Assembly: GCA_902761055.1 (NCBI GenBank)
Contig: CACWIS010000001.1
Coordinates: forward strand, 124,001-188,000
DNA length: 64,000 nucleotides
From: Oscillospiraceae bacterium
Lineage (GTDB): Bacteria > Bacillota > Clostridia > Oscillospirales > Oscillospiraceae
Reading direction: 5' to 3'
Below are positions 1 through 64,000 of this stretch, one piece after another. How positions within the stretch are numbered: the first letter of the stretch is position 1; each line of letters begins with the position of its first letter. Both the position numbers and the translations under genes were made by a program. Under the pieces are notes generated by a model. The model was not told the origin of the DNA. It saw nothing but the letters and a program-made list of their open reading frames with translations, and ran no database searches.

Positions 1-1270
1 CAAACATCAGGTCATACATGCAGACCGTGTCGCCGTCCTTGACGCCCATCTGCTCCATGCGCTCAAACACGCCGCTCTCGCGAAGGATGCGGTCAAAGAA
101 CATGCGGCTCTCGTAATCCGAGAAATTGACTGTTGCGACAAGGCGCTGCAGCCACGGTCCTTCGACCTGCCACATATCGTCGAAATGCTCGATCGAGAGA
201 TCCTCCGCCGATTCGATCTCCGGCTCGGGCGGGACGTAGTCCGGCTCGTAGCTGGCGATCGGCGGCAGCTCGCGCAGCCGGCGGGCGCACTCCCCGACCA
301 GCTCGCGCGTGCCGCTGTGCGCGGCGGCGCTGATCTCAAAGAGCTGCATCCCGCGTTCCGCGACGTAGCGGCGCAGCCGCTCGAGATTGTCGGAGCCCTC
401 CCCGAGCAGGTCGCACTTGTTCGCCGCTACGATCTGCGGCCGCTCGGCCAGCTCGGGGCTGTATTCGCGCAGCTCGGCGTTGATGGCCTCGAAGTCCTCG
501 ACGGGATCGCGGCCCTCGCTGCCGGAGACGTCGACGAGATGCACCAGCAGGCGGCAGCGGTCGATATGCCGCAGGAAGTCGTGTCCGAGACCCGCGCCCT
601 CGGAAGCGCCCTCGATGATGCCGGGGATATCCGCCATGACGAAGGAGACGCCCTCGTCCACGTATACGACGCCCAGATTCGGGAAAAGCGTCGTGAAGTG
701 GTAATTTGCGATCTTCGGGTGCGCCTTGCTCACGACGGAAAGCAGCGTGGACTTGCCGACGTTCGGGAAGCCGACGAGGCCCACGTCCGCCAGCAGCTTG
801 AGCTCCAGCGTCAGATCATGGCTCTCCCCCGGCAGGCCGGGCTTGGCAAAGCGCGGGACCTGGCGCGTGGGCGTGGCAAAATGCGTGTTGCCCCAGCCGC
901 CGCGGCCGCCCCTGGCGGCGAGCCAGTCCTCGCCGGTGGACATGTCGTGCATGATCGCGCCGCTGGCCGTGTCGCGGATGACCGTGCCGCGCGGGACCTT
1001 GATGACGAGCGTCTCGCCGTCACGGCCGTTGCAGCGCTTGCCCTGGCCGGGCATGCCGTTGGGCGCGACGTATTTGCGCTTATAGCGGAAGTCCATCAGC
1101 GTGGACATGTTCTCATCCACGGAAAAGACCACGCTCCCGCCGCGGCCGCCGTCGCCGCCGTCTGGTCCGCCCGCCGCGACGTATTTCTCGCGATGGAACG
1201 CCACGGCGCCGTCGCCGCCGCTGCCGGCGCGCACGGTGATCCGCGCTTTATCTACGAATGATGCTGCCAT
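1..1270 (-). CDS. obg: GTPase Obg (CgtA), 3' end beyond the window
   Basis: Ribosome-associated GTPase that acts in 50S subunit maturation and stress control. About 423 residues are in the window. They cover the glycine-rich Obg fold (GGPDGGDGGRGG, about residues 33-44), the G domain with P-loop GFPNVGKST, switch motif DIPGIIEGAS and NKCD, and a C-terminal OCT domain that ends at the window edge with only a few codons missing. The ATG at 1270 has AAGGAG just upstream. It follows rpmA with an intervening hairpin, the usual rplU-rpmA-obg order. Identification is secure; only the stop codon is unseen. Confidence 0.96.
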   Translation of the reverse strand, partial: MAASFVDKARITVRAGSGGDGAVAFHREKYVAAGGPDGGDGGRGGSVVFSVDENMSTLMDFRYKRKYVAPNGMPGQGKRCNGRDGETLVIKVPRGTVIRDTASGAIMHDMSTGEDWLAARGGRGGWGNTHFATPTRQVPRFAKPGLPGESHDLTLELKLLADVGLVGFPNVGKSTLLSVVSKAHPKIANYHFTTLFPNLGVVYVDEGVSFVMADIPGIIEGASEGAGLGHDFLRHIDRCRLLVHLVDVSGSEGRDPVEDFEAINAELREYSPELAERPQIVAANKCDLLGEGSDNLERLRRYVAERGMQLFEISAAAHSGTRELVGECARRLRELPPIASYEPDYVPPEPEIESAEDLSIEHFDDMWQVEGPWLQRLVATVNFSDYESRMFFDRILRESGVFERMEQMGVKDGDTVCMYDLMF

Positions 1271-1288
1271 AGTTGCTCCTTATCAAGG

Positions 1289-1321
1289 AAAAAGACCGGA
1301 CAGATGCCGTCCGGTCTTTTT
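1289..1321 (-). terminator. Intrinsic terminator between rpmA and obg
   Basis: A stem of GACCGGAC paired with GTCCGGTC, with a 7-base loop and a T5 tract when read on the minus strand. It lies only 6 bases past the rpmA stop and ahead of the obg ribosome binding site, so obg depends on read-through or on a promoter not recognised here. Confidence 0.85.
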
Positions 1322-1327
1322 GTTTCC

Positions 1328-1591
1328 TTACTGTGCGATTTCTTCGTAAACAGAGACCATCTTGCGGTCCTTGTCCTTGCGCTCGAACTTCACTCTGCCG
1401 TCGATGAGGGCGAACAGGGTGTCATCCTTCCCCTTGCCCACGTTGTTGCCGGGGTGGATCTTGGTTCCGCGCTGTCTGACAAGGATGTTGCCGGCCAGGA
1501 CAAACTGTCCGTCGGCTCTTTTGGTTCCCAGGCGCTTGGACTCGCTGTCACGGCCGTTCTTGGTGGAACCCATGCCTTTTTTGTGTGCCAT
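1328..1591 (-). CDS. rpmA: 50S ribosomal protein L27
   Basis: Large-subunit protein whose N terminus reaches the peptidyl-transferase centre. It has 87 residues and begins directly with [16 protein letters not shown]. Most Firmicutes make L27 with a short N-terminal extension that the protease Prp removes. Here an in-frame TGA lies immediately before the ATG and a good AAAGGAGG site precedes it, so no extension is possible. No prp gene is present in the 39 bases between rplU and rpmA, which fits. Transcribed with rplU. Confidence 0.97.
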
Positions 1592-1630
1592 TCAGGTTTT
1601 TCCTCCTTTTGTCAAAATAGCTGCGGATGT

Positions 1631-1945
1631 TCAGGCGTTGATCGCTTCGATCTGGACCTTCGTGTAGGGCTGTCTGTGGCCTTGCGTTCTGCGGTAACCC
1701 TTTTTGGGCTTCATCTTGTAAACGCGGATCTTGGCGGCCTTGCCGTTCTTCACCACGTTCGCGCTGACGCTGGCGCCCTCGATCACGGGCTTGCCGAACA
1801 CGGCGTTCTCGCCGTCGATCACGGCCAGGACCTGGTCGAACTTGACGCTGTCGCCGGCAGAGGCGTCGAGCTTCTCAACGAACACGACGTCGCCTTCCGC
1901 GACACGGTACTGCTTGCCGCCGGTCAGGATGATAGCATGCTTCAC
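1631..1945 (-). CDS. rplU: 50S ribosomal protein L21
   Basis: Primary 23S rRNA-binding protein of the large subunit. It has 104 residues starting [15 protein letters not shown] and ending in the typical basic tail ([17 protein letters not shown]). The start is GTG at 1945, chosen because GGGAGG lies 8 bases upstream and the family begins at this point; a longer open frame to 2038 would run through the leader and promoter. First gene of the rplU-rpmA unit. Confidence 0.96.
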
Positions 1946-2022
1946 GGATGATTTCCTCCCATCTTCAGGACTCGCTCTTGAGGCGCGGACGAGCCGACTT
2001 TGCAGGGCCTCTTCAATGCGGC
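1946..2022 (-). ncRNA. 5' leader of rplU (possible L21 leader)
   Basis: About 75 transcribed bases lie between the predicted start site and the rplU GTG. They can fold with GAGGC pairing to GCCTC around a GC-rich internal arm. Firmicute rplU genes often carry a conserved L21 leader that mimics the rRNA binding site. I see a structured leader of the right length and place but did not match it to the family model. Confidence 0.45.
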
Positions 2023-2028
2023 TTTGGT

Positions 2029-2057
2029 ATAATATCACGGCGATGCAGCAATGTCAA
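2029..2057 (-). promoter_or_regulatory. Sigma-A promoter of rplU-rpmA
   Basis: TTGACA and TATTAT separated by 17 bases, reading on the minus strand toward rplU. The -35 is a perfect consensus match. Confidence 0.9.
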
Positions 2058-2096
2058 CAGATTTTCTGCATCTTTTTTCGGCGTTTTTGCCGTTTT

Positions 2097-3434
2097 TCAG
2101 CCGACGGCCTGGATCGTGTCGTCAACGAGCATGACGCCGCCGTCCGCACCGCTCTGGCTGATGAATCGGCGGTGCTGCACGCCGCTGCTGTCGGTGTAGC
2201 GGATCATCAGATCCGGCATCCCCTCGGGCACGAGTGTGCAAAGCTGCAGAGCGCAGTCCGTCATGTAGTTGGCGTACCAGTGGCGCGCGCTCTCGTAAAA
2301 GCGCTCGTCCTCATCGACCTGCTCAAGGTAATAGAAGCTGCAGATCATAAGATCGTAGACCGTTCCGTCCACCTTGAGGCACAGCTCGTCGCCGTCCGAA
2401 ACGACAACACGGTCGATGATACTGACGCTGCCTTCTTCAACGTCCTCGATGCGCGTGATCGAAACGCTCCCGTCGCCCTCCCGTAAGGCGGGCAGGTATT
2501 TCGGCTCGATCGCGCCCGCGATTGCGGTATACGGGACAGTGAAGAAGAGGATGCCGTATTCCTCCGGACCGATCTCGCCCCAGGAGGAGAAAAACACGAG
2601 GCCCTCGCCGCCGAAATACCAGTTGTCGTCCCGCACCAGCGATGCGAGCGCGGCGTCGGCGTCCATGTCGTTCTGCGAGATCCTGTGGTAGAGCTCCTGA
2701 TCCTCGCGCGCAGCGGAGATGACACAGGCGGCAAGCTTCTCGCGGAAGCTCTCCGCGTCGGGCGCAAGCATGTCGAGCGTCAGTTTCTCGCCGGTCTCGC
2801 TGCTGTAGCTGCGTCCGACATAGCCGCGCTGGTCCTGCGCGCCGCCGGTATACACGCTTGTCCAGTACAGAAAGCTGATCACACTGCTGTCCGCGCGCAT
2901 GCAGTCGACAGAGCGGAAGGAGGAATAGAGCGTTTCGGTCTGCGTGTTTTTGCTCTTCGCGTACGCGTAGTTGTCAAGCGCGATCTCATAGAGATGATTT
3001 TTGCCCATGTCGTCGCCGAAGCCGGAGTAATACAGCTCGTCGAGCACGCGCAGCTGTTCGTTGATCTCCTCGGCCGCAGCCGGGTCGCCGTCCATGCGGA
3101 CCTCGGGCGTTACGTAGGAAAAGGTCAACAGCGGCATCTTCTCGTCGTCGGGCGCGTATTCTGTCTCCTTCGTCTGGCGCAGGAAGATACGGATCTGCTC
3201 GCCGAGCTCCGCCCTTCCCTCAAAAGAGACGGGGGCGGTCTCCTCCGCGGGGCCGCTCTCCGGGTCGCCGGGCGCGGCGCTCTGCTCCGCGGCCGGTGCG
3301 GGCGTCTCCTCCGGCGCGCTCACGGGCGTCGGCAGCGGCGGCAGCTCGGTGTTGCGGATGGCGTCAAGCCCGGCGCAGGCGCACAGAGAGAAAGCCATGC
3401 AGATGCAAAGGATCAGCGCAAAAGTCTTTTTCAT
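2097..3434 (-). CDS. DUF3298-type lipoprotein
   Basis: Predicted exported lipoprotein of 445 residues. The N terminus has a signal peptide with a lipobox-like LCAC at about residues 17-20, followed by a Pro/Glu/Ala-rich linker to about residue 75. The body has features of the DUF3298/RsiV-like fold found in PdaC and RsiV: YTGGAQDQRGYVGRSYSSETG, a DML segment, and a later FFTVPYTAIAGAI stretch. The last 100 residues form an additional domain I do not recognise. The start has GAGGTAGAGT upstream. It follows the CYTH gene by 27 bases and probably shares its promoter. Function unknown. Confidence 0.75.
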   Translation of the reverse strand: MKKTFALILCICMAFSLCACAGLDAIRNTELPPLPTPVSAPEETPAPAAEQSAAPGDPESGPAEETAPVSFEGRAELGEQIRIFLRQTKETEYAPDDEKMPLLTFSYVTPEVRMDGDPAAAEEINEQLRVLDELYYSGFGDDMGKNHLYEIALDNYAYAKSKNTQTETLYSSFRSVDCMRADSSVISFLYWTSVYTGGAQDQRGYVGRSYSSETGEKLTLDMLAPDAESFREKLAACVISAAREDQELYHRISQNDMDADAALASLVRDDNWYFGGEGLVFFSSWGEIGPEEYGILFFTVPYTAIAGAIEPKYLPALREGDGSVSITRIEDVEEGSVSIIDRVVVSDGDELCLKVDGTVYDLMICSFYYLEQVDEDERFYESARHWYANYMTDCALQLCTLVPEGMPDLMIRYTDSSGVQHRRFISQSGADGGVMLVDDTIQAVG

Positions 3435-54586: not shown

Positions 54587-55323
54587 CATCTTTTTTTCAG
54601 CAGGAACGGGACGCCCTCGCCGTAGGGCGAGCCGGGGGTGCTCTGCTCCACGCGGCGGCGCAGCGCGCCGCGGTCGGCGATCGCCATGCCGGCGAGCCGG
54701 TCGATCCCGAAGTCCAGCAGCGCAGGGCACATCGGAACGGAAGGGCCGGTCAGGATCGTGATCGCGTTGCCGCAGAGCTCGAGCAGGTGCGGCAGCGTCT
54801 TGTTGACGAGCGAGCTGCCCGTGATGATCACGAGGTCGCAGCGCGGCAAAAGCAGGTCGCAGGCGCTGTCGGGGTAGTCCCCCTCCTGCGGCGCACGCTC
54901 GAGGCGATAGACCTCTTTCGCCTGCTCGCGCAGGCCCTTCGGGCCGCGCATGTGCCCGACGATGCCGACGGTGCGGCCGCGCAGGTCGATGCCCTCGGTG
55001 CTGTACTTTTCAAAGGGCTCGTAGCTGCCGAGCGTCTCGATGCGCGCAGGCGTGTTGTAAAAAGCGTTCGCCGCGGCGAGACCGAAGGACGCTTCCTCAA
55101 GGTTCCAGCTCTTTGCGGCGCGCGCCGCCTCGCAGAGCGGAAGGCCGTCGAGCGATCCGAACATCGGCGCGATGCTCGTCCCCTGTGTGAACATCGCCAT
55201 GCCGGAGCTGTCCGCGGTCTCGACGAGCGCCCACTGCTCGCCGCAGCGCGTGCGCTCGATCCGCTCCCCGGAGGCGACGCCGTCGATCAGCGCGTCATAG
55301 AGCGCGAAAAAATCATTCTTCAT
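54586..55323 (-). CDS. DUF364-type putative heavy-metal chelating protein
   Basis: 245 residues. The C-terminal half has a Rossmann-like part (VGIVGHMRGPKGLREQ, CDLVIITGSSLVNKTLP, ILTGPSVPMCPAL) typical of the DUF364/DUF4213 family, whose members are proposed metal or cofactor handlers. GFGRL-like glycine clusters lie in the N half. The start overlaps xdhC by 11 bases, so the products probably act together. The exact role is unknown. Confidence 0.75.
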   Translation of the reverse strand: MKNDFFALYDALIDGVASGERIERTRCGEQWALVETADSSGMAMFTQGTSIAPMFGSLDGLPLCEAARAAKSWNLEEASFGLAAANAFYNTPARIETLGSYEPFEKYSTEGIDLRGRTVGIVGHMRGPKGLREQAKEVYRLERAPQEGDYPDSACDLLLPRCDLVIITGSSLVNKTLPHLLELCGNAITILTGPSVPMCPALLDFGIDRLAGMAIADRGALRRRVEQSTPGSPYGEGVPFLLKKR

Positions 55324-56329
55324 TGCGTCTGGCGCGCAGTTCGATCAGCTGCGCGGCGATGGAGATCGCGATCTCCGCGGGGGTCTCCGCCTTGATATCG
55401 AGGCCGATGGGCGAGGTGATGCGCGCAAAGACCTCGTCGGCGAAGCCGTACTCCTCCTTGAGCTTCCGGTACACGCCCGCCTTTTTGCGCGCACTGCCGA
55501 TCACGCCGATATAGCAGGCGTCGGTCATCAGCAGCTGCGCCTGCACGACCGCGTCGAAGGCGTGGCCGCGCGTCAGCACGCAGGCGTAATCCTCTTCCGT
55601 GACAGTGACGCTGTCCGCGATATGCTCAAAGTCGCCGAGGATCACTTCCTCCGCATCCGGGAAGAGGGCGCGCGTGGCGAACTCCGGCCGGTCGTCCATC
55701 GCGACACAGCGGAAGCCGACGTGTGAGAGCACCGGGACGAGCTCCTGCGCCACATGGCCGCAGCCGAAGACATAGACGCGGCCCGAGGAGTTGATCTGCT
55801 CAACGTAGAGATCGCGCCCCTCCTTCTGTACGCGGCCGGGACGGCGGGAGAGTTCCCCCGCAAGCCAATCCGGCGCGCCGACGCCGACGAAGCCGTCCTC
55901 GCGCGTATAGAGGCCGATACGGCCCTTGTCCGCGATATCGCTGATGAGCCACAGATCGCGGCCGGAGGCGAAGTAGCCCTCCGCTTTTTCGGCGATCTCC
56001 AGCGTCTTTTCATCGCCCGCCGGGAGGAAGCCGAAGAAAACGCTGACCGCGCCGCCGCAGATCATGCCGAGATCCTCGACGTCGTTGCGCGTGAGATTGA
56101 AGCCGTGCTCGAAGGAGGCTTTTTCCTCCAGCACCTTCTGCGCCATCTGCTCGCTGCGGTATTCGACCGCGCCGCCGCCGATCGTGCCGCAGAGGCGGCC
56201 TTCTTTCCCGATCAGCATGCGCGCGCCCGCGCCGCGCGGCGTCGCCCCGGACGATGCGATGACCGTGACGAGCGCCAGATCCTCCCCGGCGCGCAGGCGC
56301 TCGGAGATCAGACGGAACATTTTTCTCAT
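55313..56329 (-). CDS. XdhC/CoxI family protein
   Basis: 338 residues. The N-terminal XdhC domain has VTVIASSGATPRGAGARML and GTIGGGAVEYR; the C-terminal Rossmann domain has YVFGCGHVAQELVPVL and CVLTRGHAFD, ending in ITSPIGLDIKAETPAEIAISI. XdhC binds molybdenum cofactor and inserts sulfur (or, in related systems, may supply selenium) for molybdenum hydroxylases. No such enzyme is in the window. AAGGAG lies 9 bases upstream of the ATG. Confidence 0.9.
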   Translation of the reverse strand: MRKMFRLISERLRAGEDLALVTVIASSGATPRGAGARMLIGKEGRLCGTIGGGAVEYRSEQMAQKVLEEKASFEHGFNLTRNDVEDLGMICGGAVSVFFGFLPAGDEKTLEIAEKAEGYFASGRDLWLISDIADKGRIGLYTREDGFVGVGAPDWLAGELSRRPGRVQKEGRDLYVEQINSSGRVYVFGCGHVAQELVPVLSHVGFRCVAMDDRPEFATRALFPDAEEVILGDFEHIADSVTVTEEDYACVLTRGHAFDAVVQAQLLMTDACYIGVIGSARKKAGVYRKLKEEYGFADEVFARITSPIGLDIKAETPAEIAISIAAQLIELRARRNEE

Positions 56330-56335
56330 GTGGCA

Positions 56336-57550
56336 TTACTCCTTTGTACGCTGTAAGGATTTGATTTCCCGACACTCGAGATAATAGCGCTTCTCCTCGG
56401 CGAGGCCCATGGAAAAGGTCTTGCGCGGAAGGACGCCGCTTTTCCCGATGCTGTCAAAAAGCGTATTTTTGTCGATGGGAGGCATCAGAAAAGCGATCGA
56501 GCGCTCCTGCCGCGAAAGCGCGACGGCCACGTCGCCGCCGTGGATATAGTCGATCTCGCCGCCGTGCGCTTCGAGCCAGGCGTCGAGCGCCCGCTGCAGC
56601 GCGGCGAGCGGAAGCGTATCCGGGCCGAAGCAGAGCGTCCCGCTCTTTTCCGCCGCATGCCATTCGACCGGCGCCCCGCCGCGCGCACAGCCCTTTTGCA
56701 GCGTCGCGAGCAGCGCTTCCGGTTCGACGTTCCGTACGATGCGGTGGATCGGCTCGAAGCGCTGCGCGGGGTCGAACAGGTTTTCCAGCTCGACCGTCGC
56801 ATAGCGCGCCGGATGCTCCGTCCCGGCAAGGCTCGGATCCTTTGCCTTCAGCGCCTCCCAGCAGGACTTTGCGGCCGCGAGCGAGTGGTTTCCGTCGCCG
56901 ACGGCATAGCAGAAGCCGCCGTCCGTGCCGCGCTCGTATGCGGCGAGCGCCGCGTCGAAGCGTGCGGCCGCCGCGCCGCCGACCAGGTAGCCGGCCAGAT
57001 GGCCGCCGCCCTGCATCAGCTCGAGCTCGTAGAGCTTCTCCCCTCTTTCCGCGTTCTCGAGCAAAGCGCAGGTCGGATCGCTGCACAGCAGCAGGACATG
57101 GGACAGCTCAAGCGCCGCGTCCTCGCGGATGCGGACGCGCGGCGGGATGCGTGAGACGACGGTCCTCTCCGTCGCGCGGACCGGCGTGCGTGCGTCCTCA
57201 CGGTAGTCGTATTGCTCGAGGTCGAGGAGACAGATCACACCGCGGCGGACCGTTCCGTCATGCAGCGTGCGTTCGACAAGGATGTAAGCCTCGGGGATGC
57301 GGCGGAAGATTTCCCGGGAAAGGTATTCCTCCATCGTCCGGTCGATAGCCGCGATCCGCTCCGCGTCGTTCCCGCCGAGCTCCGCCTCCGGCAGGATGAT
57401 GTGATATGCAGAGGGCGCGTCGCCGACGAGGAGCGCCGTCCGACGCCAGTAGTCCGGCTGCGAAGTGAACTGGTCACAGGCGACGACCGGCCATTTATTC
57501 AGAAACTGATCCTCCGGGATCAAGAAAGTACCGCGTTTCAAAACAGGCAT
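56336..57550 (-). CDS. DUF1015 family protein
   Basis: 404 residues of the widespread DUF1015 family, function unknown. The family signature YAVGDGNHSLAAAK (about 216-229) is present, with SYDVI-like YHIILPE early and a long alpha/beta body. First gene of a three-gene unit (DUF1015, xdhC, DUF364) with a TGGTATAAT extended -10 promoter. It ends with TAA inside the xdhC ribosome binding site. Confidence 0.83.
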   Translation of the reverse strand: MPVLKRGTFLIPEDQFLNKWPVVACDQFTSQPDYWRRTALLVGDAPSAYHIILPEAELGGNDAERIAAIDRTMEEYLSREIFRRIPEAYILVERTLHDGTVRRGVICLLDLEQYDYREDARTPVRATERTVVSRIPPRVRIREDAALELSHVLLLCSDPTCALLENAERGEKLYELELMQGGGHLAGYLVGGAAAARFDAALAAYERGTDGGFCYAVGDGNHSLAAAKSCWEALKAKDPSLAGTEHPARYATVELENLFDPAQRFEPIHRIVRNVEPEALLATLQKGCARGGAPVEWHAAEKSGTLCFGPDTLPLAALQRALDAWLEAHGGEIDYIHGGDVAVALSRQERSIAFLMPPIDKNTLFDSIGKSGVLPRKTFSMGLAEEKRYYLECREIKSLQRTKE

Positions 57551-57586
57551 CCGACATCCCTCATTTGCAGCCGCTTTTTGAGATCA

Positions 57587-57595
57587 TTATACCAT
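57587..57595 (-). promoter_or_regulatory. Extended -10 promoter of the DUF1015 operon
   Basis: TGGTATAAT on the minus strand. A TTGACA seven bases upstream is too close to act as the -35, so an extended -10 is assumed. Confidence 0.6.
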
Positions 57596-57608
57596 CTCTG
57601 TCAAGAAA

Positions 57609-57640
57609 AAAGAGGAAGCCGGATATGACCCGGCTTCCGT
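57609..57640 (-). terminator. Terminator after glmM
   Basis: GGAAGCCGG with CCGGCTTCC, seven-base loop, then TCT6 on the minus strand. Confidence 0.9.
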
Positions 57641-57651
57641 GAGAGATCGGA

Positions 57652-58998
57652 TTATGCGAGGTGTCCCTTGGACGCGATGACCGCGATCACGTCGTCAACA
57701 TATTTCTCGCAGATCTCCTTCGTCCCGGCCTCAACCATGACGCGGATGACCGGCTCGGTCCCGCTCTCGCGCACAAGGATGCGGCCCGTGTCGCCGAGTT
57801 CTTCGCCGACCTTTCTGACCGCCGCCTGCACGTCGGGGTCGTTCTGCGCCTCAGGCTTGGATTTGACGCGGACGTTCTTGAGCACCTGCGGGTAAAACAC
57901 GACGGGCGCGGCGAGTTCGCTCATCGGCTTCTCTCTGTCGAGCATGACCTCCATCAGCTTCAGGCTCGTCAGGATGCCGTCGCCGGTCGTGGCATGCTCG
58001 GTAAAGATCACGTGGCCGGACTGCTCGCCGCCGATCTTGTGGCCGTTCTGGACCATATTCTCATAGACGTATTTGTCGCCGACCTTGGTCTTCTCGTAGC
58101 CGACGCCCACGGCGTCGAGCGCCTTGTAAAGGCCGAAGTTCGACATGACCGTCGTGACGACCTTGTTGTTGGCGAGCTTGCCGTGCTCCTTCATGTAAAG
58201 GCCGCAGATATAGATCGTATGGTCGCCGGTCACGACATTGCCCTTTTCGTCGACGCAGATGCAGCGGTCGGCGTCGCCGTCATAGGCAAAGCCGACGTCC
58301 AGGCCCTTGTCGACGACGAATCTCTGCAGATGCTCGATATGCGTGCTGCCGCAATTGGTGTTGATGTTATAGCCGTCCGGCTCCGCGCTCATGACGTAGG
58401 TCTTTGCGCCGAGCGCGTCGAAGACGCTCTTGGCGATCTGCCAGGCGGCGCCGTTGGCGACGTCGAGACCGACCTTGACGTCCTTGAAGCTGAAGCGGGA
58501 GAGCGAGATCAGGTAGCCGATGTAGCGGTTGCGGCCCGCAACGTAGTCGACGGTGCGGCCGATCTGCTCGCGCTCGGCAAGCGGCAGCTCGAGCTTGCCG
58601 TCGATGTAGTCCTCGATGCCAAGCAGCGTCTCCTCGTCCATCTTCTCGCCGTTGTTGTTGACGATCTTGATGCCGTTGTCGTAGAAGGGGTTGTGCGAGG
58701 CGGAGATCATGATGCCGCAGTCGAAATCGTCCACGCGCGCGATATAGGACACGGAGGGCGTCGTCGTGACGTGCATGATGTAGGCGTCCGCGCCCGAGGC
58801 CATCAGGCCCGCGCAGAGCGCGTATTCGAACATATAGCTCGAGCGGCGGGTGTCCTTGCCGATGACGACCTTGGCTTTTTTATTCAGCCTTGCGCCGTAG
58901 TACCAGCCGAGATAGCGGCCGATCTTGATGGCGTGCTCATAGTTGAGATCCTTGTTGGCTTCGCCGCGGAAGCCGTCGGTGCCGAAGTATTTACCCAT
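57652..58998 (-). CDS. glmM: Phosphoglucosamine mutase
   Basis: Converts glucosamine-6-phosphate to glucosamine-1-phosphate for UDP-GlcNAc synthesis. It has 448 residues: KYFGTDGFRGEAN at the N terminus, the phosphoserine loop ISASHNPFYDNGIK (about 100-113), the metal loop YDGDADRCI and the C-terminal RESGTEPVIRVMVE. Third gene of the glmS-ribozyme operon; starts two bases after the nagB stop. Confidence 0.96.
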   Translation of the reverse strand: MGKYFGTDGFRGEANKDLNYEHAIKIGRYLGWYYGARLNKKAKVVIGKDTRRSSYMFEYALCAGLMASGADAYIMHVTTTPSVSYIARVDDFDCGIMISASHNPFYDNGIKIVNNNGEKMDEETLLGIEDYIDGKLELPLAEREQIGRTVDYVAGRNRYIGYLISLSRFSFKDVKVGLDVANGAAWQIAKSVFDALGAKTYVMSAEPDGYNINTNCGSTHIEHLQRFVVDKGLDVGFAYDGDADRCICVDEKGNVVTGDHTIYICGLYMKEHGKLANNKVVTTVMSNFGLYKALDAVGVGYEKTKVGDKYVYENMVQNGHKIGGEQSGHVIFTEHATTGDGILTSLKLMEVMLDREKPMSELAAPVVFYPQVLKNVRVKSKPEAQNDPDVQAAVRKVGEELGDTGRILVRESGTEPVIRVMVEAGTKEICEKYVDDVIAVIASKGHLA

Positions 58999-58999
58999 A

Positions 59000-59791
59000 T
59001 TACAGTCTCTCTTTCCTTTCGATATCCAGGAAATATTTGTACGTGTCGACGGTCAGCTCGCCGCAGGCGGCCTCGTCGCAGGCGATGATCGCGCCGTTGT
59101 GCATCTGCAGGGCGCTGCAGGTCCACTTGTGGCTGACGTTGCCCTCGACCGTGGCGGCAAGCGCGCGGGCCTTGTTGTGGCCGCTGATGAGCACGAGGAC
59201 TTCCCTGGAGTCCGTGACCGTGCCGATGCCGACGGAGAGCGCCTGGGCGGGGACCTTCTCAGGATCGCCGCCGAAGAAGCGGCTGTTGACGATGCGCGTG
59301 TCGGTCGTGAGATCGCGCACGCCGGTGCGGGACGTCAGCGAGGTGAAGGGCTCGTTGAAGGCCAGGTGGCCGTCCACGCCGATGCCGCCCATGAAGAGGT
59401 CGATGCCGCCGTAGGAGGCGATCTTTTCCTCATAGCGGGCGCACTCGCCCTCCGGATCGTCGGTCATGCCGTTGAGGATGTTGATGTTCTCCGGCTTCAT
59501 GTCCACGAGATGATCGAAGAAAGTGTCGTGCATGAAGTACCAGTAGCTCTGGTCGTGCTCGCGCGGCAGGCCGAGATACTCGTCCATGTTGAAGGTCACG
59601 ACGTTGGCGAAGGAGAGCTCGCCCGCCTTGTTCATGCGGATCAGCTCCTTGTAAACGCCGATCGGGGACGAGCCGGTCGGCAGGCCGAGAACGAAGGGCC
59701 TGTCTTCTTTGTGGGCCCTGATCTTCGCGGCGATGTAAGCGGCCGCCCATTTGCTCATTTTATCGTAGTTGTCCTGAATAATGACTCTCAT
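59000..59791 (-). CDS. nagB: Glucosamine-6-phosphate deaminase/isomerase
   Basis: Interconverts glucosamine-6-phosphate and fructose-6-phosphate plus ammonia. It has 263 residues with LGLPTGSSPIGVYKELIR, FNMDEYLGLPREHDQSY, and the catalytic GGIGVDGHLAFNEP. All expected motif residues are present. It is placed in a biosynthetic operon ahead of glmM and behind a glmS ribozyme, which suggests it may run toward GlcN6P here. GGAG lies 9 bases before the ATG at 59791. Confidence 0.94.
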   Translation of the reverse strand: MRVIIQDNYDKMSKWAAAYIAAKIRAHKEDRPFVLGLPTGSSPIGVYKELIRMNKAGELSFANVVTFNMDEYLGLPREHDQSYWYFMHDTFFDHLVDMKPENINILNGMTDDPEGECARYEEKIASYGGIDLFMGGIGVDGHLAFNEPFTSLTSRTGVRDLTTDTRIVNSRFFGGDPEKVPAQALSVGIGTVTDSREVLVLISGHNKARALAATVEGNVSHKWTCSALQMHNGAIIACDEAACGELTVDTYKYFLDIERKERL

Positions 59792-59810
59792 TTGATGTGC
59801 TCCTTGCCCT

Positions 59811-60467
59811 TCAGATTTTTTCAACGATCACGCCGTTGTCTTTGAAAATGCTGTTCTCCGGGACGACGCCGCGAACGCAGGAGGTCGGATAGATATTGCT
59901 GTGGCGGCCGACGACCGTGCCGGGATTGCACACGCTGTTGCAGCCCACTTCCACATAGTCGCCGAGCATCGCGCCGAACTTCTTGATGCCGGTCTCGATC
60001 TGCTCGGTGCCGTTGTGGACGACGACGAGCTTCTTGTCGGACTTGACGTTCGAGGTGATGGAGCCCGCGCCCATGTGCGAATAGTAGCCGAGGATCGAAT
60101 CGCCGACGTAGTTGTAATGCGGGGTCTGGACGTGGTCGAAAAGGATCACGTTCTTCAGCTCCACGCTGTTGCCGACGACGCAGTTCGCGCCGACGAGCGC
60201 CGAGCCGCGGATGAACGCGCAGTGCCGCACCTCGGTCTCCGGGCCGATGATGCAGGGCGCGCCGAGATAAGCGCTCGGGAAGACCTTGGCGGTCTTGTGC
60301 ACCCAGACGTGCTCGGCGACTTCTTCATAGTCCTCGCCCAGCGTGGGGCCGAGCTGCAGGATGAACTCCTTGATCCCCTTGAGCGCTTCCCAGGGGTAAG
60401 TGAACTGCAAAAGATAATCTTTTGCAAGCGTATGGTCGAGATCGTACAGATCTTTTATCGTATACAT
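59811..60467 (-). CDS. Left-handed beta-helix acyltransferase, GlmU C-terminal-like
   Basis: 218 residues: a helical start of about 40, then hexapeptide repeats (VGNSVELKNVILFDHV, GDYVEVGCNSVCNPGTVVG). It matches the acetyltransferase half of GlmU, including the position of its catalytic His (TPHYNYVGDSILG) and GAGSITSNV. There is no nucleotidyltransferase domain. A likely role is acetylation of GlcN1P, inferred from the fold and from the glmM neighbour. AAAGGAAAG precedes the ATG at 60467. First gene of the operon after the ribozyme. Confidence 0.85.
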   Translation of the reverse strand: MYTIKDLYDLDHTLAKDYLLQFTYPWEALKGIKEFILQLGPTLGEDYEEVAEHVWVHKTAKVFPSAYLGAPCIIGPETEVRHCAFIRGSALVGANCVVGNSVELKNVILFDHVQTPHYNYVGDSILGYYSHMGAGSITSNVKSDKKLVVVHNGTEQIETGIKKFGAMLGDYVEVGCNSVCNPGTVVGRHSNIYPTSCVRGVVPENSIFKDNGVIVEKI

Positions 60468-60513
60468 CGTTGCTTTCCTTTCCGTAAGGATTCGGCAAAA
60501 AGCCGTATCGGCG

Positions 60514-60649
60514 TCAAGAGAGGCTCTGTTACAGTGTTCATTCTGCTTTTTCTTCTCTCTCTGACGGCCCGCCGATCCTGGCCGTGACAGCATCCGCCGA
60601 GTCTTTCGACAACTGTCAGTCCTCGTCAACCGCTTCGGGTCCCGGCGCT
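60514..60649 (-). ncRNA. glmS ribozyme (GlcN6P-activated self-cleaving RNA)
   Basis: On the minus strand, cleavage is expected between A (60649) and G (60648), at TTA|GCGCC. Downstream features match the family: GCGCCGGGACC, then GTTGACGAGG, a paired GACAG/CTGTC, TTGTCGAAAGACTCGGCGGATGC split across loops, P3 around CGGCC/GGCCG, and a P4-like AGAGAG/CTCTCT arm. Binding GlcN6P triggers self-cleavage and mRNA decay. Here it controls the acyltransferase-nagB-glmM operon. Confidence 0.93.
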
Positions 60650-60737
60650 AATAACGCTCCCTGCTCCTTTCCGGACCGTTATTTTACTTCTCTGAACGGG
60701 TCCGCATCAGAGATCGGGCCCTTTCAAATTCTAATGT

Positions 60738-60766
60738 ATTATACTCTATATCCTGCTGAAAATCAA
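60738..60766 (-). promoter_or_regulatory. Promoter of the glmS-ribozyme operon
   Basis: TTGATT, 17-base spacer, perfect TATAAT on the minus strand. About 80 transcribed bases with a TCTCTGA/TCAGAGA hairpin come before the ribozyme cleavage site. Confidence 0.87.
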
Positions 60767-60784
60767 TGAAAAACTGTTTGGAAC

Positions 60785-60798
60785 CACAAGGCCTTGTG
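60785..60798. repeat. 14-bp perfect palindrome, candidate operator
   Basis: CACAAGGCCTTGTG, fully self-complementary, between the -35 elements of the divergent amino-sugar operon and the ROK-like gene. Confidence 0.55.
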
Positions 60799-60829
60799 TC
60801 AGCGCGATCCGTGCCGGCGCATAATCTGT

Positions 60830-60858
60830 TTGTAATCGGCGGCGGGACGTGGTATGCT
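60830..60858 (+). promoter_or_regulatory. Promoter of the ROK-like gene
   Basis: TTGTAA, 17-base spacer, TATGCT, then AGGAGG before the ATG. Confidence 0.65.
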
Positions 60859-60883
60859 TGAAAAAAAAACAGGAGGCTGTTTC

Positions 60884-62470
60884 ATGATAAAGAACCGGAT
60901 CCACCTCGGTGAAAGCGGCGCTTCGCTCTGGCTGCCGGAGCTGCGTGAGAGCTTCGCTCGCTCTGCGGACGTCGAACGGATCGTCGTCCGTCTCTCGGGC
61001 CGCCACTACGGCGTGCGCGAGCGCGAGCTGTTTCTGCCGACCGCGCAAGACGGCGCAGAACGGGATTTCCTGCTCCGCTATCTCTCGGCAAACATATATA
61101 ATCTTCTCTCCGCCTACAGTGCGTCGGAGCTTTGCGTCTTCTGCGGCGGCGGCACGGCGGAGCTCGTCCGCGCGCTCCCTCCCCTCTTTGAAGGCGGCGG
61201 GCTCGGAAAGGTGAGCAGCGTTGCGCTCCGCATATACGGCGGGCTCGCGTTCCGCATTTCTCCGCTCGATGAATACGCTCCGACGGAAAACGCGGCGTCC
61301 GCGGTCTCCCTCGATCTTCCGCGGCGTCTGCGCGGCCGTGTCCGCGCGTCGGCAGAAAAAAGCTGCGTCGGGATCGACGTCGGCGGAAGCGATATCAAGC
61401 TGGCCGTCTCCTGCCGCGGCAGCCTGTTGTACACAAAAGAGTATGACTGGAATCCCGCCGCCTCCCCGACCGCCGACGGGATCACGGAGCCCATCCTCGC
61501 GCTGGTGCGCGAGGCGGCCGGACGGATCGCCCGTGAAGGCGGCACGCTCGACGCCGTGGGGATCAGCTTCCCCGACGTCGTCATCGGCGACCGTATCGTC
61601 GGCGGCGAGACGCCCAAGACGAAAGGCATGCGGGAAAACGCGGCGCTGGACTATGAGACGGAGTTCGCAAAGCTGCGGGAGCTGCGCGCCGCGATCCTGC
61701 CTCTCTGCGCGCCGGGCGCCGCCGTACGTCTCACGAACGACGGCAACATGTCCGCCTATACCGCGGCGGTCGAGCTGGCCGAAGGCGGCGCGGACGAAGC
61801 GATCCGCGGCGGGGTCGTCGCGCACTCGCTCGGTACGGATCTCGGTACCGGCTGGCTGCTCTCCGACGGTACGATCCCCGCGATCCCGCTGGAGCTTTAC
61901 GATCTGCTGCTCGATCTGGGCGATCTGCCCGCCGCCGCACTCCCTCCGGCGGATCTGCGGAGCACGCGCAACGAGAACTCCGGCATGCCCGGCGTACGGC
62001 GCTATCTCGGCCAGGCCGCGGCCTATCGTCTTGCCTGGACGCTGGACCCCTCGCTCCTTGACGGATTCGTCCGCCGCGAGGGAGAACTGCTGACGATCCC
62101 GACCGCGCCCGAGGATCTGCGCAAGCCCTGTCTGGAGCATCTCATGCGTCTTGCCGCCGAGGGAGACGGATCCGCGGAGGAGATCTTCCGCCGGATCGGG
62201 AAAAACCTCTCTGTCGTCGCGCAGGAAATGAACTGGCTTTTCGGTCAGACGCCGCCGAGCCGTTTTCTTTTCGGCCGCTTCGTCAAATCCCGCCGCTGCT
62301 TCGAGCTGCTCTGCGAGGGCTTCGGCGCGGCCGGGACCGGGATCCGCCTGATCGCCGCTGACGACGATCTTGCCAACACGCCGCTGATGCGGCAGCTCGC
62401 GCAGATGCCCGGCGTGAGCGTCGCCCAGTTCGCCCAGGCGATCGGCGCGATCTATTACGCCGCCGAATAA
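60884..62470 (+). CDS. Large ROK-like sugar kinase or regulator
   Basis: 528 residues. The part from about 170 on is ROK-like: GIDVGGSDIKLAV (phosphate loop), GISFPDVVIG, TNDGNMSAYTAAVE and SLGTDLGTGWLL. Residues 1-165 are an unfamiliar extension with no helix-turn-helix that I can see. The ROK zinc motif (GH..CxCGxxGC) is absent, so it is unlike usual ROK glucokinases. AGGAGG lies seven bases before the ATG at 60884. Divergent from the amino-sugar operon; a role with amino sugars is inferred only from context. Confidence 0.78.
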   Translation: MIKNRIHLGESGASLWLPELRESFARSADVERIVVRLSGRHYGVRERELFLPTAQDGAERDFLLRYLSANIYNLLSAYSASELCVFCGGGTAELVRALPPLFEGGGLGKVSSVALRIYGGLAFRISPLDEYAPTENAASAVSLDLPRRLRGRVRASAEKSCVGIDVGGSDIKLAVSCRGSLLYTKEYDWNPAASPTADGITEPILALVREAAGRIAREGGTLDAVGISFPDVVIGDRIVGGETPKTKGMRENAALDYETEFAKLRELRAAILPLCAPGAAVRLTNDGNMSAYTAAVELAEGGADEAIRGGVVAHSLGTDLGTGWLLSDGTIPAIPLELYDLLLDLGDLPAAALPPADLRSTRNENSGMPGVRRYLGQAAAYRLAWTLDPSLLDGFVRREGELLTIPTAPEDLRKPCLEHLMRLAAEGDGSAEEIFRRIGKNLSVVAQEMNWLFGQTPPSRFLFGRFVKSRRCFELLCEGFGAAGTGIRLIAADDDLANTPLMRQLAQMPGVSVAQFAQAIGAIYYAAE

Positions 62471-62488
62471 TGCGGATCGAACAGTCAA

Positions 62489-62519
62489 AAACTCCCCGGG
62501 AAGATCCCGGGGAGTTTTC
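62489..62519. terminator. Bidirectional terminator between convergent genes
   Basis: AAAACTCCCCGGGA with TCCCGGGGAGTTTT, three-base loop, T tract on both strands. Confidence 0.92.
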
Positions 62520-62553
62520 TTATTGTATTGCTGTGCTGATCTGATATTTGCTT

Positions 62554-63999
62554 TCAGCCGCCGACCTCCGGCGTGCCCGTGCCGCTGTGCTCCACCCACT
62601 TTGCATACAGCGTGGTATTGCTGTTGACAACGTAGTCTTCCGCATCCAGATAGCCTTCACAGACCACCTGCGTTCCTTCAGGGTCCAGACACCAGCCGGC
62701 AAAGTCTTTCCCTTCCTGCGTCAGCGAGAAGAACTCGAGATAACGATCATAGACCGAGGCGAGGTTCTTTCCCTTCGGAATATCGATCGAGAATGAAGCA
62801 GAAGTATAGGCATAGCCGGGCTCCTCGTATACGAACTGTCCTCCGTTGGCATCCAGCGTGAGCGTACAGCCGGGTACGCGCTTGGCATACAGCGTCATAT
62901 CTTTCGTGGGAACGAAGCCGTTGCGGATCGGGCTTCCGCTGAATTTTGAGTTGTTATACCATTCCGTGGTATAGCCGTTCGCACCCCAATAGACCTCCGG
63001 GAAATAGACGCTGTTGTCGCGCAGTACCTTCATCCAATCAGTTGACGGTCCTTCGTCGTAATAAAGGTGCCCATTGTTCTTCGCTGCGTTTAAGGTCAGC
63101 TTCCAGGCGCTCGCCCACTTGGCGTAGAGCGTCATGTCGCTTTCGGGGACGAAGTCATAGAGATCGTATTCACCCGCGATCTGATCACCCGTGCCGGCTG
63201 CGTCCAGATACCAGCCGACGAGCGCCGTATGCTGGTCGTGATGCTCGACAGCGCCGGTGAAGCGGAGCGCTTCCCCTACCGGGACAAGAATCGTCTCGAA
63301 AGTCATGCTGTCAACGCCGTACAGATACCCGCCGTTCGCTTCGATCTTGACCGTATAAACCGCTGTTTTGACGACCGACAGGGATACTGTGCCGTTGAAG
63401 GATTCATTCCAATTGGCGACCGAGATCTTATACGTTTCCCCCGCTTCCAGATAGCAGATCAGACGGGCCGGGTCTTCACCATACTGCCAGGCGTCGACGT
63501 ACATTTCATAACTGAAATCTTCAATGGCAAGCCAAAACCCACTCGCCTGATCCGGGCGAATCACATAATATCCGCTCTCCGCAGGAGTGAAGATCGCAAA
63601 GTCCGCCATACCGCCGTTGACCACGATGTTGTTGCTCCCGACAGTGAGGTCCAGTGCGCGTTCCCACTTCGCATACAGGGTCATGCTGCTCTCGATCGGC
63701 GTATTGTCAAGGTCGAAGGCTTCGCCCGTGCAGTCCGGGTCCTCATACCAGCCGCGGAACAGGAGCGTCGGATCGCAGGGCCCGATATCAGGGTATTCGG
63801 GAGCGGTCGTTCCCTTTGGGATCCGCTGAGTCAGCAGCTCTTCGCCAGATTCGTAGAAGTAACCGCCGTTGGCGTCAAAGGTGAGATCAACGCTCTCTAC
63901 TCGGATCGCGGTCAACTCCATGTCATGTGTCGGCACATCCTCGTCGGGGTCGAATATCTCACCGGTCGCTTCGTCAATCCAGCCGATGCAAATATAATC
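62554..63999 (-). CDS. InlB-repeat surface protein, N terminus beyond the window
   Basis: C-terminal 481 residues of a larger protein; the frame is open to the right edge. It consists mainly of InlB B-repeats (Listeria-Bacteroides repeat), each about 70-80 residues with a FDANGG or EANGG strand, a GWY.D..CTG turn and a final MTLYAKW. About five such units are seen, with an inserted 90-residue domain in the middle (NIVVNGGMADFAIFTPAESG on) that looks like a PPC-type fold. No C-terminal sortase LPxTG motif: the protein ends SGTGTPEVGG. Secretion is presumed, since the signal would be outside the window. Confidence 0.8.
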   Translation of the reverse strand, partial: DYICIGWIDEATGEIFDPDEDVPTHDMELTAIRVESVDLTFDANGGYFYESGEELLTQRIPKGTTAPEYPDIGPCDPTLLFRGWYEDPDCTGEAFDLDNTPIESSMTLYAKWERALDLTVGSNNIVVNGGMADFAIFTPAESGYYVIRPDQASGFWLAIEDFSYEMYVDAWQYGEDPARLICYLEAGETYKISVANWNESFNGTVSLSVVKTAVYTVKIEANGGYLYGVDSMTFETILVPVGEALRFTGAVEHHDQHTALVGWYLDAAGTGDQIAGEYDLYDFVPESDMTLYAKWASAWKLTLNAAKNNGHLYYDEGPSTDWMKVLRDNSVYFPEVYWGANGYTTEWYNNSKFSGSPIRNGFVPTKDMTLYAKRVPGCTLTLDANGGQFVYEEPGYAYTSASFSIDIPKGKNLASVYDRYLEFFSLTQEGKDFAGWCLDPEGTQVVCEGYLDAEDYVVNSNTTLYAKWVEHSGTGTPEVGG

Positions 64000-64000
64000 C

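Follow-up and report, generated by a model that had tools for sequence, protein, structure and literature searches.

The glmS ribozyme is a textbook one-gene RNA sensor and a proposed antibiotic target, and in the 2011 survey of McCown and others all but two of 463 copies reportedly lay in glmS mRNAs. In known members of the class, cleavage is triggered by glucosamine-6-phosphate (GlcN6P) and is followed by degradation of the mRNA (PMC10043782, PMC11477304). Here we describe a ribozyme of this class that precedes an acyltransferase-nagB-glmM operon in a 64,000-nucleotide (nt) stretch of an Oscillospiraceae bacterium (hereafter the window; GenBank assembly GCA_902761055.1, contig CACWIS010000001.1, positions 124,001 to 188,000 of the forward strand). 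The window copy resembles the glmS ribozyme of Bacillota (RF00234) in its core, its full-length match to the model, its location in a 5' leader and its presumed GlcN6P cofactor. It belongs to a group that differs in heading either acyltransferase-nagB-glmM or nagB alone.

Three described NagB enzymes are the closest points of comparison for the regulated protein. The window NagB resembles the E. coli type (TIGR00502) in scoring above the curated cut-off and in keeping all checked catalytic residues, but differs from it in the replacement of Ser151/Arg158/Lys160 by Thr/Gly/Arg, in its biosynthetic-looking partners and in having no adjoining nagA. The deaminase of Giardia lamblia also belongs to the NagB family and is termed anabolic; N-acetylglucosamine-6-phosphate (GlcNAc6P) does not activate it, and its Vmax is higher for amination than for deamination (100 vs 38.1; PMC4281351). 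Giardia, however, is a eukaryote, and its enzyme keeps an arginine at the place of Arg158 while other residues of the site are lost (PMC4281351). Akkermansia muciniphila is a gut bacterium with a NagB that is not activated by GlcNAc6P and, like some of the genomes considered here, is without GlmS, but its NagB was non-aminating at physiological conditions and the bacterium needs N-acetylglucosamine (GlcNAc) or N-acetylgalactosamine (PMC5902328).

The initial annotation of the window had recognised a glmS ribozyme core by pattern, with a cleavage site TTA|GCGCC, and the covariance search that it proposed was clearly positive. Positions 60507-60660 (minus strand) matched RF00234 with 61.1 bits (gathering cut-off 37, E 1.8e-12) over the full model (1-167 of 167), and RF00234 was the sole Rfam family above cut-off when 55000-64000 was searched with all families. 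The predicted cut (TTA|GCGCC, read by eye) falls between A60649 and G60648 and is followed by GTTGACGAGG and TCGGCGGATGC. All elements of the catalytic core were present in the window, namely AGCGCC at the cut, GACGAGG and CGGCGGATG. The full-length match rules out a chance pattern as the source of this core, and the window RNA is a member of the glmS ribozyme class, standing before acyltransferase-nagB-glmM and not in the position before glmS that is usual for, but does not define, the class. It is the one ribozyme found in its genome (G000; 1.89 Mb, 45 contigs, 80.74% complete); no second copy before glmS was found in the search of this genome or in 14 kb around its glmS.

The three genes downstream of the ribozyme lie on the same strand (start codons were picked by eye). 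The first, at 59811-60467 (minus strand, ATG at 60467), encodes a left-handed beta-helix acyltransferase of 218 amino acids (aa) that resembles the C-terminal domain of archaeal GlmU. It is followed by nagB (59000-59791, minus strand), a member of the GlcN6P deaminase family with 376 bits against TIGR00502 (cut-off 236.9); the listed open reading frame reaches upstream to a TTG at 59824, and the ATG at 59791 was chosen. The third gene, glmM (57652-58998, minus strand), encodes a phosphoglucosamine mutase of 448 aa with 535 bits against TIGR01455 (cut-off 447.55). The ribozyme-headed operon of the initial annotation therefore stands, and its gene order recurs in related genomes, as a survey of relatives showed.

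Ribozymes at E ≤ 0.001 were present in 45 of 300 genomes of the family, exactly one in each of the 45, and 44 of these scored above cut-off (the exception being G131, 33.6 bits). The first gene behind the ribozyme was glmS in 34 of the 45 and nagB, the acyltransferase or glmM in 11. Within the latter group NagB came first in nine genomes (87-92% identical to that of the window), the acyltransferase in G000 and glmM in G036. The G036 ribozyme (L077:1984-2189, plus strand) precedes glmM, the acyltransferase and then a NagB of another subfamily that is 35% identical to that of the window and under the TIGR00502 cut-off (208.9 vs 236.9 bits), and may represent an independent recruitment of the same regulation.

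A second sample comprised the best 80 of at least 585 NagB relatives on named bacterial contigs. These 80 shared 86-95% identity and were labelled Lachnospiraceae, Ruminococcaceae, Oscillospiraceae or Clostridia, with many of the contigs titled as ruminant-gut. A search with a sequence model trained on the 45 family ribozymes detected a ribozyme at E < 1e-3 near 55 of the 80 loci; among the other 25, L130, L146 and L149 hold too little upstream sequence to tell. The first gene was nagB at 44 of the 55 and the acyltransferase at 11, including by hand L136, where the ribozyme sits between a piece of glmS and acyltransferase-nagB-glmM. At ten of the 55 loci nagB stood alone, neither acyltransferase nor glmM being seen in the available sequence, and for eight of these ten 1.5 kb or more of downstream sequence is available. 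In L182, glmS is the last gene of the same run. Counted from where the match of the sequence-only ribozyme model ends, the first gene match lay 25-75 nt away at 37 of 54 loci (range 16-415).

The covariance model scored above cut-off in each of the 30 named genomes tested, which are a subset of the 47 used for the GlmS and nagA searches below, and found a single copy in 29. In the remaining genome (G315), two ribozymes of similar score (L287:142-307, L288:1928-2093) were found, one before nagB and the other at the edge of a contig; the pair may stem from an assembly overlap. A further seven nagB-linked loci, most of them divergent, each carried one ribozyme above cut-off (7/7), and an eighth locus was glmS-linked. 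Two of the named loci (L115 and L134, Ruminococcaceae bacterium YRB3002 and P7) bear neither 'MAG' nor 'uncultured' in their titles and seem to be isolates. Recurrence in many assemblies rules out a one-genome oddity or a mis-assembly.

The RNA itself is conserved among nagB-linked copies. An alignment of 42 rows was made from the window and 41 of the 55 named ribozymes, apart from the other ten family copies (44 of the 55 passed a filter on core pattern and length, 11 failed, and L142, L150 and L187 were then left out). Both-sided compensatory changes were found in 17 of 31 pairs predicted by RNAalifold, pseudoknots lying outside the prediction. CGGCGG, a string outside the row filter, was invariant in all 42 rows; AGCGCC and GACGAGG were invariant as well, partly by construction, as rows were picked with GCGCC and GACGAGG. 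Without the filter, GCGCC followed by GACGAGG was present in 53 of the 55 named nagB-linked loci (exceptions L154 and L170), and among the 11 family copies G090 reads AACGAGG and G289 reads CGGTGG.

We consider it probable, with appreciable room for doubt, that the ribozyme exerts end-product feedback on a NagB that works mainly as an ammonia-dependent maker of GlcN6P, with GlmS as a second route. Under this explanation the operon would supply precursors of UDP-GlcNAc through a probable glucosamine-1-phosphate acetyltransferase, NagB and GlmM, and NagB would mainly form GlcN6P from fructose-6-phosphate and ammonia. Abundant GlcN6P would act as cofactor for self-cleavage of the ribozyme, and the cut mRNA would be degraded, lowering NagB, GlmM and the acetyltransferase, as in ordinary end-product feedback on the ammonia route. 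GlmS would be kept as a ribozyme-free glutamine route among genes of ammonium uptake and glutamine synthesis, probably for use at low ammonia. Turning the operon down at high GlcN6P would be homeostatic only for an operon that makes GlcN6P, and on this logic the aminating direction is preferred. The initial annotation had spoken of a rewired feedback loop; this holds in outline, but no rationale was given for feedback on what are usually GlcN6P consumers, and with evidence for NagB as a GlcN6P maker the loop becomes ordinary end-product feedback. Three lines, namely the operon partners, the scarcity of nagA and the changes in the NagB enzyme, point at the level of sequence to a biosynthetic role for NagB. 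The anabolic deaminase of Giardia offers a precedent (PMC4281351).

Regarding the partners, the match of the acyltransferase to GlmU models is confined to their C-terminal part and falls below every cut-off, the best model being the archaeal-type TIGR03992 (141.1 bits vs cut-off 292.1). The His, Tyr, Asn and Lys that we take to be catalytic in Sulfolobus ST0452, for which literature support was not found, align with residues of the window protein. The acetyltransferase part of canonical GlmU (E ≤ 1e-40) was present in 3 of 52 ribozyme-nagB genomes vs 18 of 25 ribozyme-glmS genomes (41 of the 47 named genomes and 25 of the 34 ribozyme-glmS genomes were included). Given that it is rare in the former group, the operon acyltransferase probably supplies that step and is thus a probable glucosamine-1-phosphate N-acetyltransferase.

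Regarding the enzyme, the catalytic residues D72, D141, H143 and E148 (E. coli numbering) are all kept in the window NagB. Across 65 ribozyme-linked NagB rows (in which L119 and G178 are apparently the same genome), D72, D141 and E148 were kept in 65/65 and H143 in 64/65. The GlcNAc6P site has been described as Y121, S151, R158, K160 and Y254 (PMC4281351). In the window NagB, Y121 and Y254 are kept and the other positions of this allosteric site are replaced (S151T, R158G, K160R), and the protein falls outside the allosteric hexameric subtype. The three replacements were found in 65/65 ribozyme-linked and 25/25 other close NagB rows, and the same change was seen in 12 more NagB loci at 73-89% identity (L278 and L176 are apparently one contig). 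Because the whole examined subfamily has the change, R158G/K160R does not single out the ribozyme-linked enzymes.

GlmS and nagA were searched for in the 11 family genomes and at 47 of the 55 named ribozyme loci (L118, L119, L123, L127, L136, L154, L170 and L182 were omitted; L119 appears to be the same genome as G178, itself tested). NagB is present in all 58 ribozyme-nagB genomes; nagA turned up at E ≤ 1e-20 in 21 of the 58, and none was seen at the 55 named ribozyme loci. In 22 of the 34 ribozyme-glmS genomes that were tested, nagA was present in ten and NagB in ten, nine of these ten NagB-bearing genomes also having nagA; in at least six of the nine the two genes are neighbours by coordinates. 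Lack of nagA alone was ruled out as a mark of ribozyme-nagB genomes (37/58 vs 12/22), and it is only the lack of nagA in NagB-bearing genomes that separates the two groups.

The genome of the window has one glmS, located on another contig (G000:C21:11703-13535, 770.7 bits). The 'no glmS' of the initial annotation thus applies to the operon and fails for the genome, and a genome without glmS was ruled out. No RNA-family match above cut-off was found in 14 kb around this gene. On contig 21 (L033:1739-9783), glmS lies beside asparagine synthase (asnB), an Amt/P-II fusion and a type III glutamine synthetase, and in many relatives it lies in similar nitrogen clusters with differing gene order. Nitrogen genes (glutamine synthetase, Amt/P-II, AsnB, ANTAR regulator, GltB and glutamate dehydrogenase) were counted in the available glmS flanks; four genomes that lack a nagB ribozyme, G318 and the second GlmS copy in G317 did not enter the count. 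At least one such gene was present in 28 of 44 ribozyme-nagB flanks vs 1 of 34 ribozyme-glmS flanks (Fisher 1e-8), in 25/44 vs 1/34 when windows were matched (Fisher 1.5e-7) and in 19/30 vs 1/27 for well-covered loci only (Fisher 1.3e-6); these Fisher values overstate the difference because the set was chosen post hoc, the reference proteins came from the same loci and relatedness was uncorrected. This frequent adjacency suggests that glmS may be under nitrogen control in these genomes.

In a quick tree with several long branches (made without the fragmentary G293 sequence and the second GlmS of G317), GlmS proteins of ribozyme-nagB genomes were distributed over several lineages, with at least seven label changes, so that the nagB link is independent of any one GlmS lineage. 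The GlmS of the window genome nests, together with those of two congeners that yielded no ribozyme, in a clade that otherwise consists of ribozyme-controlled GlmS. Across the family, NagB was present in 43 of 56 GlmS-less genomes (no match at E ≤ 1e-100) vs 123 of 244 others (odds ratio 3.25, Fisher 3.2e-4, uncorrected for relatedness), a difference in favour of the ammonia route. Three family genomes with the ribozyme-nagB arrangement had no GlmS, namely G004 (94% complete), G131 (100%) and G090 (65%); ten named genomes likewise had none, among them three with large pieces (G325, G338 and G344).

Several points weigh against NagB as a feedback-controlled GlcN6P maker. GlmS was above cut-off in 45 of the 58 ribozyme-nagB genomes (8 of 11 in the family, 37 of 47 named); NagB is therefore rarely the sole source of GlcN6P, and that stronger proposal is unsupported in general. 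The ribozyme of GlmS-less G131 is the one that scores under cut-off (33.6 bits), and close NagB (at least 73% identity) was weakly tied to lack of GlmS (7/22 vs 49/278). With respect to nagA, the window's own genome carries it on contig 16, and it was also absent from 12 of the 22 ribozyme-glmS genomes. R158G/K160R is common to the whole examined NagB subfamily, including that of G264, a congener without the ribozyme in which about 1 kb separates a close NagB from a NagA homologue. The NagB of Akkermansia, though not GlcNAc6P-activated, formed no GlcN6P at physiological conditions (PMC5902328), and NagB of Gram-positive bacteria is described as generally monomeric and non-allosteric (PMC9812318). 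Because these enzymes likewise lack allosteric activation, a lost allosteric site says little on direction by itself. According to a review, NagB favours the catabolic direction, and the E. coli enzyme has a Km for ammonium of 31.4 mM (PMC11593775). Finally, the nitrogen genes were selected after seeing what clusters near these glmS genes, 16 of 44 GlmS loci show none of them in the available flank, and the counts carry no correction for relatedness.

The alternative that fares best, although we judge it unlikely, keeps NagB catabolic and makes the ribozyme an ON switch: cleavage would remove an inhibitory leader or stabilise the mRNA, and high GlcN6P would be drained through NagB and GlmM. 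NagB and GlmM are consumers of GlcN6P in textbooks, and the window NagB scores as a deaminase (TIGR00502), both of which suit such a switch. So does the direction described as favoured in the review cited above (PMC11593775). The short distance between ribozyme and first gene at most loci (25-75 nt in 37/54) leaves little room for another expression platform, although no search for a platform was made; together with the apparently biosynthetic partners and the failure to see nagA at any of the 55 named ribozyme loci, it speaks against such a switch.

An OFF switch could also be aimed at glmM and the acyltransferase, throttling flux to UDP-GlcNAc with nagB merely carried along. The acyltransferase does come first in the window and at 11 of the 55 named ribozyme loci, and ribozymes precede glmM in G717 and G036, but nagB is first at 44 of the 55 loci and is the only one of the three genes at ten, and shutting off a consumer when its substrate is high would not be homeostatic; we give this arrangement a low probability. 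That the ribozyme is a non-regulating relict, left behind or carried in when glmS moved or was replaced, is very improbable: the several lineages of GlmS in ribozyme-nagB genomes, the generally lower scores of nagB-linked than of glmS-linked ribozymes and the changed core letter in G090 and G289 would fit it, but compensatory pairs and a conserved core across the copies, and scores above the gathering cut-off in 30/30 named genomes, 10/11 family genomes and 7/7 separately checked nagB-linked loci, speak for a maintained RNA.

In a survey of the phylum the ribozyme was found in 265 of 398 genomes. Contexts were read within the listed matches, which are the stronger ones and leave aside about a hundred weaker hits. 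Of the 48 distinct ribozymes outside the nagB group read in this way, 45 precede glmS: all 30 top-scoring copies do so, as do 15 in a further set of 18, made up of 12 low-listed copies, that of G706 and five taken from genomes chosen for having two copies. G717 contains two ribozymes 1.5 kb apart (L282:1441-1594 and 3098-3251, plus strand), one before glmM and one before glmS, and this ribozyme pair is followed by an acyltransferase like that of the window. In G372, a ribozyme of 101.3 bits (L284:2266-2418, minus strand) lies about 50 nt upstream of glnA, the gene of a type I glutamine synthetase (862-2214, minus strand; TIGR00653, 578 bits); could GlcN6P here exert feedback on glutamine supply? 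In G700, a ribozyme of 100.1 bits (L285:1452-1625, plus strand) lies about 200 nt before a fructose-1,6-bisphosphate aldolase/phosphatase (1828-2952, plus strand; NF041126, 591.8 bits), whose product is fructose-6-phosphate, the precursor of GlcN6P.

Ribozymes on genes for glutamine and fructose-6-phosphate supply fit with nagB as a supply gene. A broader reading, which we put forward tentatively and at slightly under even chances, is that glmS ribozymes provide general feedback on GlcN6P supply. A large group of gut Clostridia would then split this supply between NagB with ammonia, under the ribozyme, and GlmS with glutamine, in a nitrogen-limitation set, and elsewhere in the phylum the ribozymes would guard glnA and the fructose-1,6-bisphosphate aldolase/phosphatase. 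In the literature searched, judged by title and the start of the abstract, no report of a glmS ribozyme before nagB was recognised; the RNA class is known, and the nagB gene context is new as far as this literature goes. If the proposal is true, a whole group of gut bacteria would show that the sensor is tied to the enzyme producing the metabolite and not to the glmS gene. Whether NagB, usually filed as catabolic, is a working amino-sugar synthase where ammonia is abundant then becomes a testable question, and compounds that activate the ribozyme would strike a different pathway in ribozyme-nagB bacteria.

The operon is bracketed by two predicted signals. A sigma-70-like promoter (TTGATT-17 nt-TATAAT, 10 of 12 matches) was predicted at 60766-60738 (minus strand), and a terminator-like hairpin of 11 pairs (seven G-C) with a T tail lies directly 3' of glmM at 57638-57614 (minus strand). 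Chance yields about as many such sites: the scanned stretch held two promoter-like sites vs a shuffle mean of 1.2, weak evidence alone, and three terminator-like hairpins vs a mean of 3.1. Divergent from the operon, 60854-62470 (plus strand) encodes a 538 aa protein. No Pfam or NCBIfam match was obtained for it at E ≤ 0.001; a sugar-kinase-like motif (GIDVGGSDIK) was noted by eye, and the protein is possibly an unusual sugar kinase.

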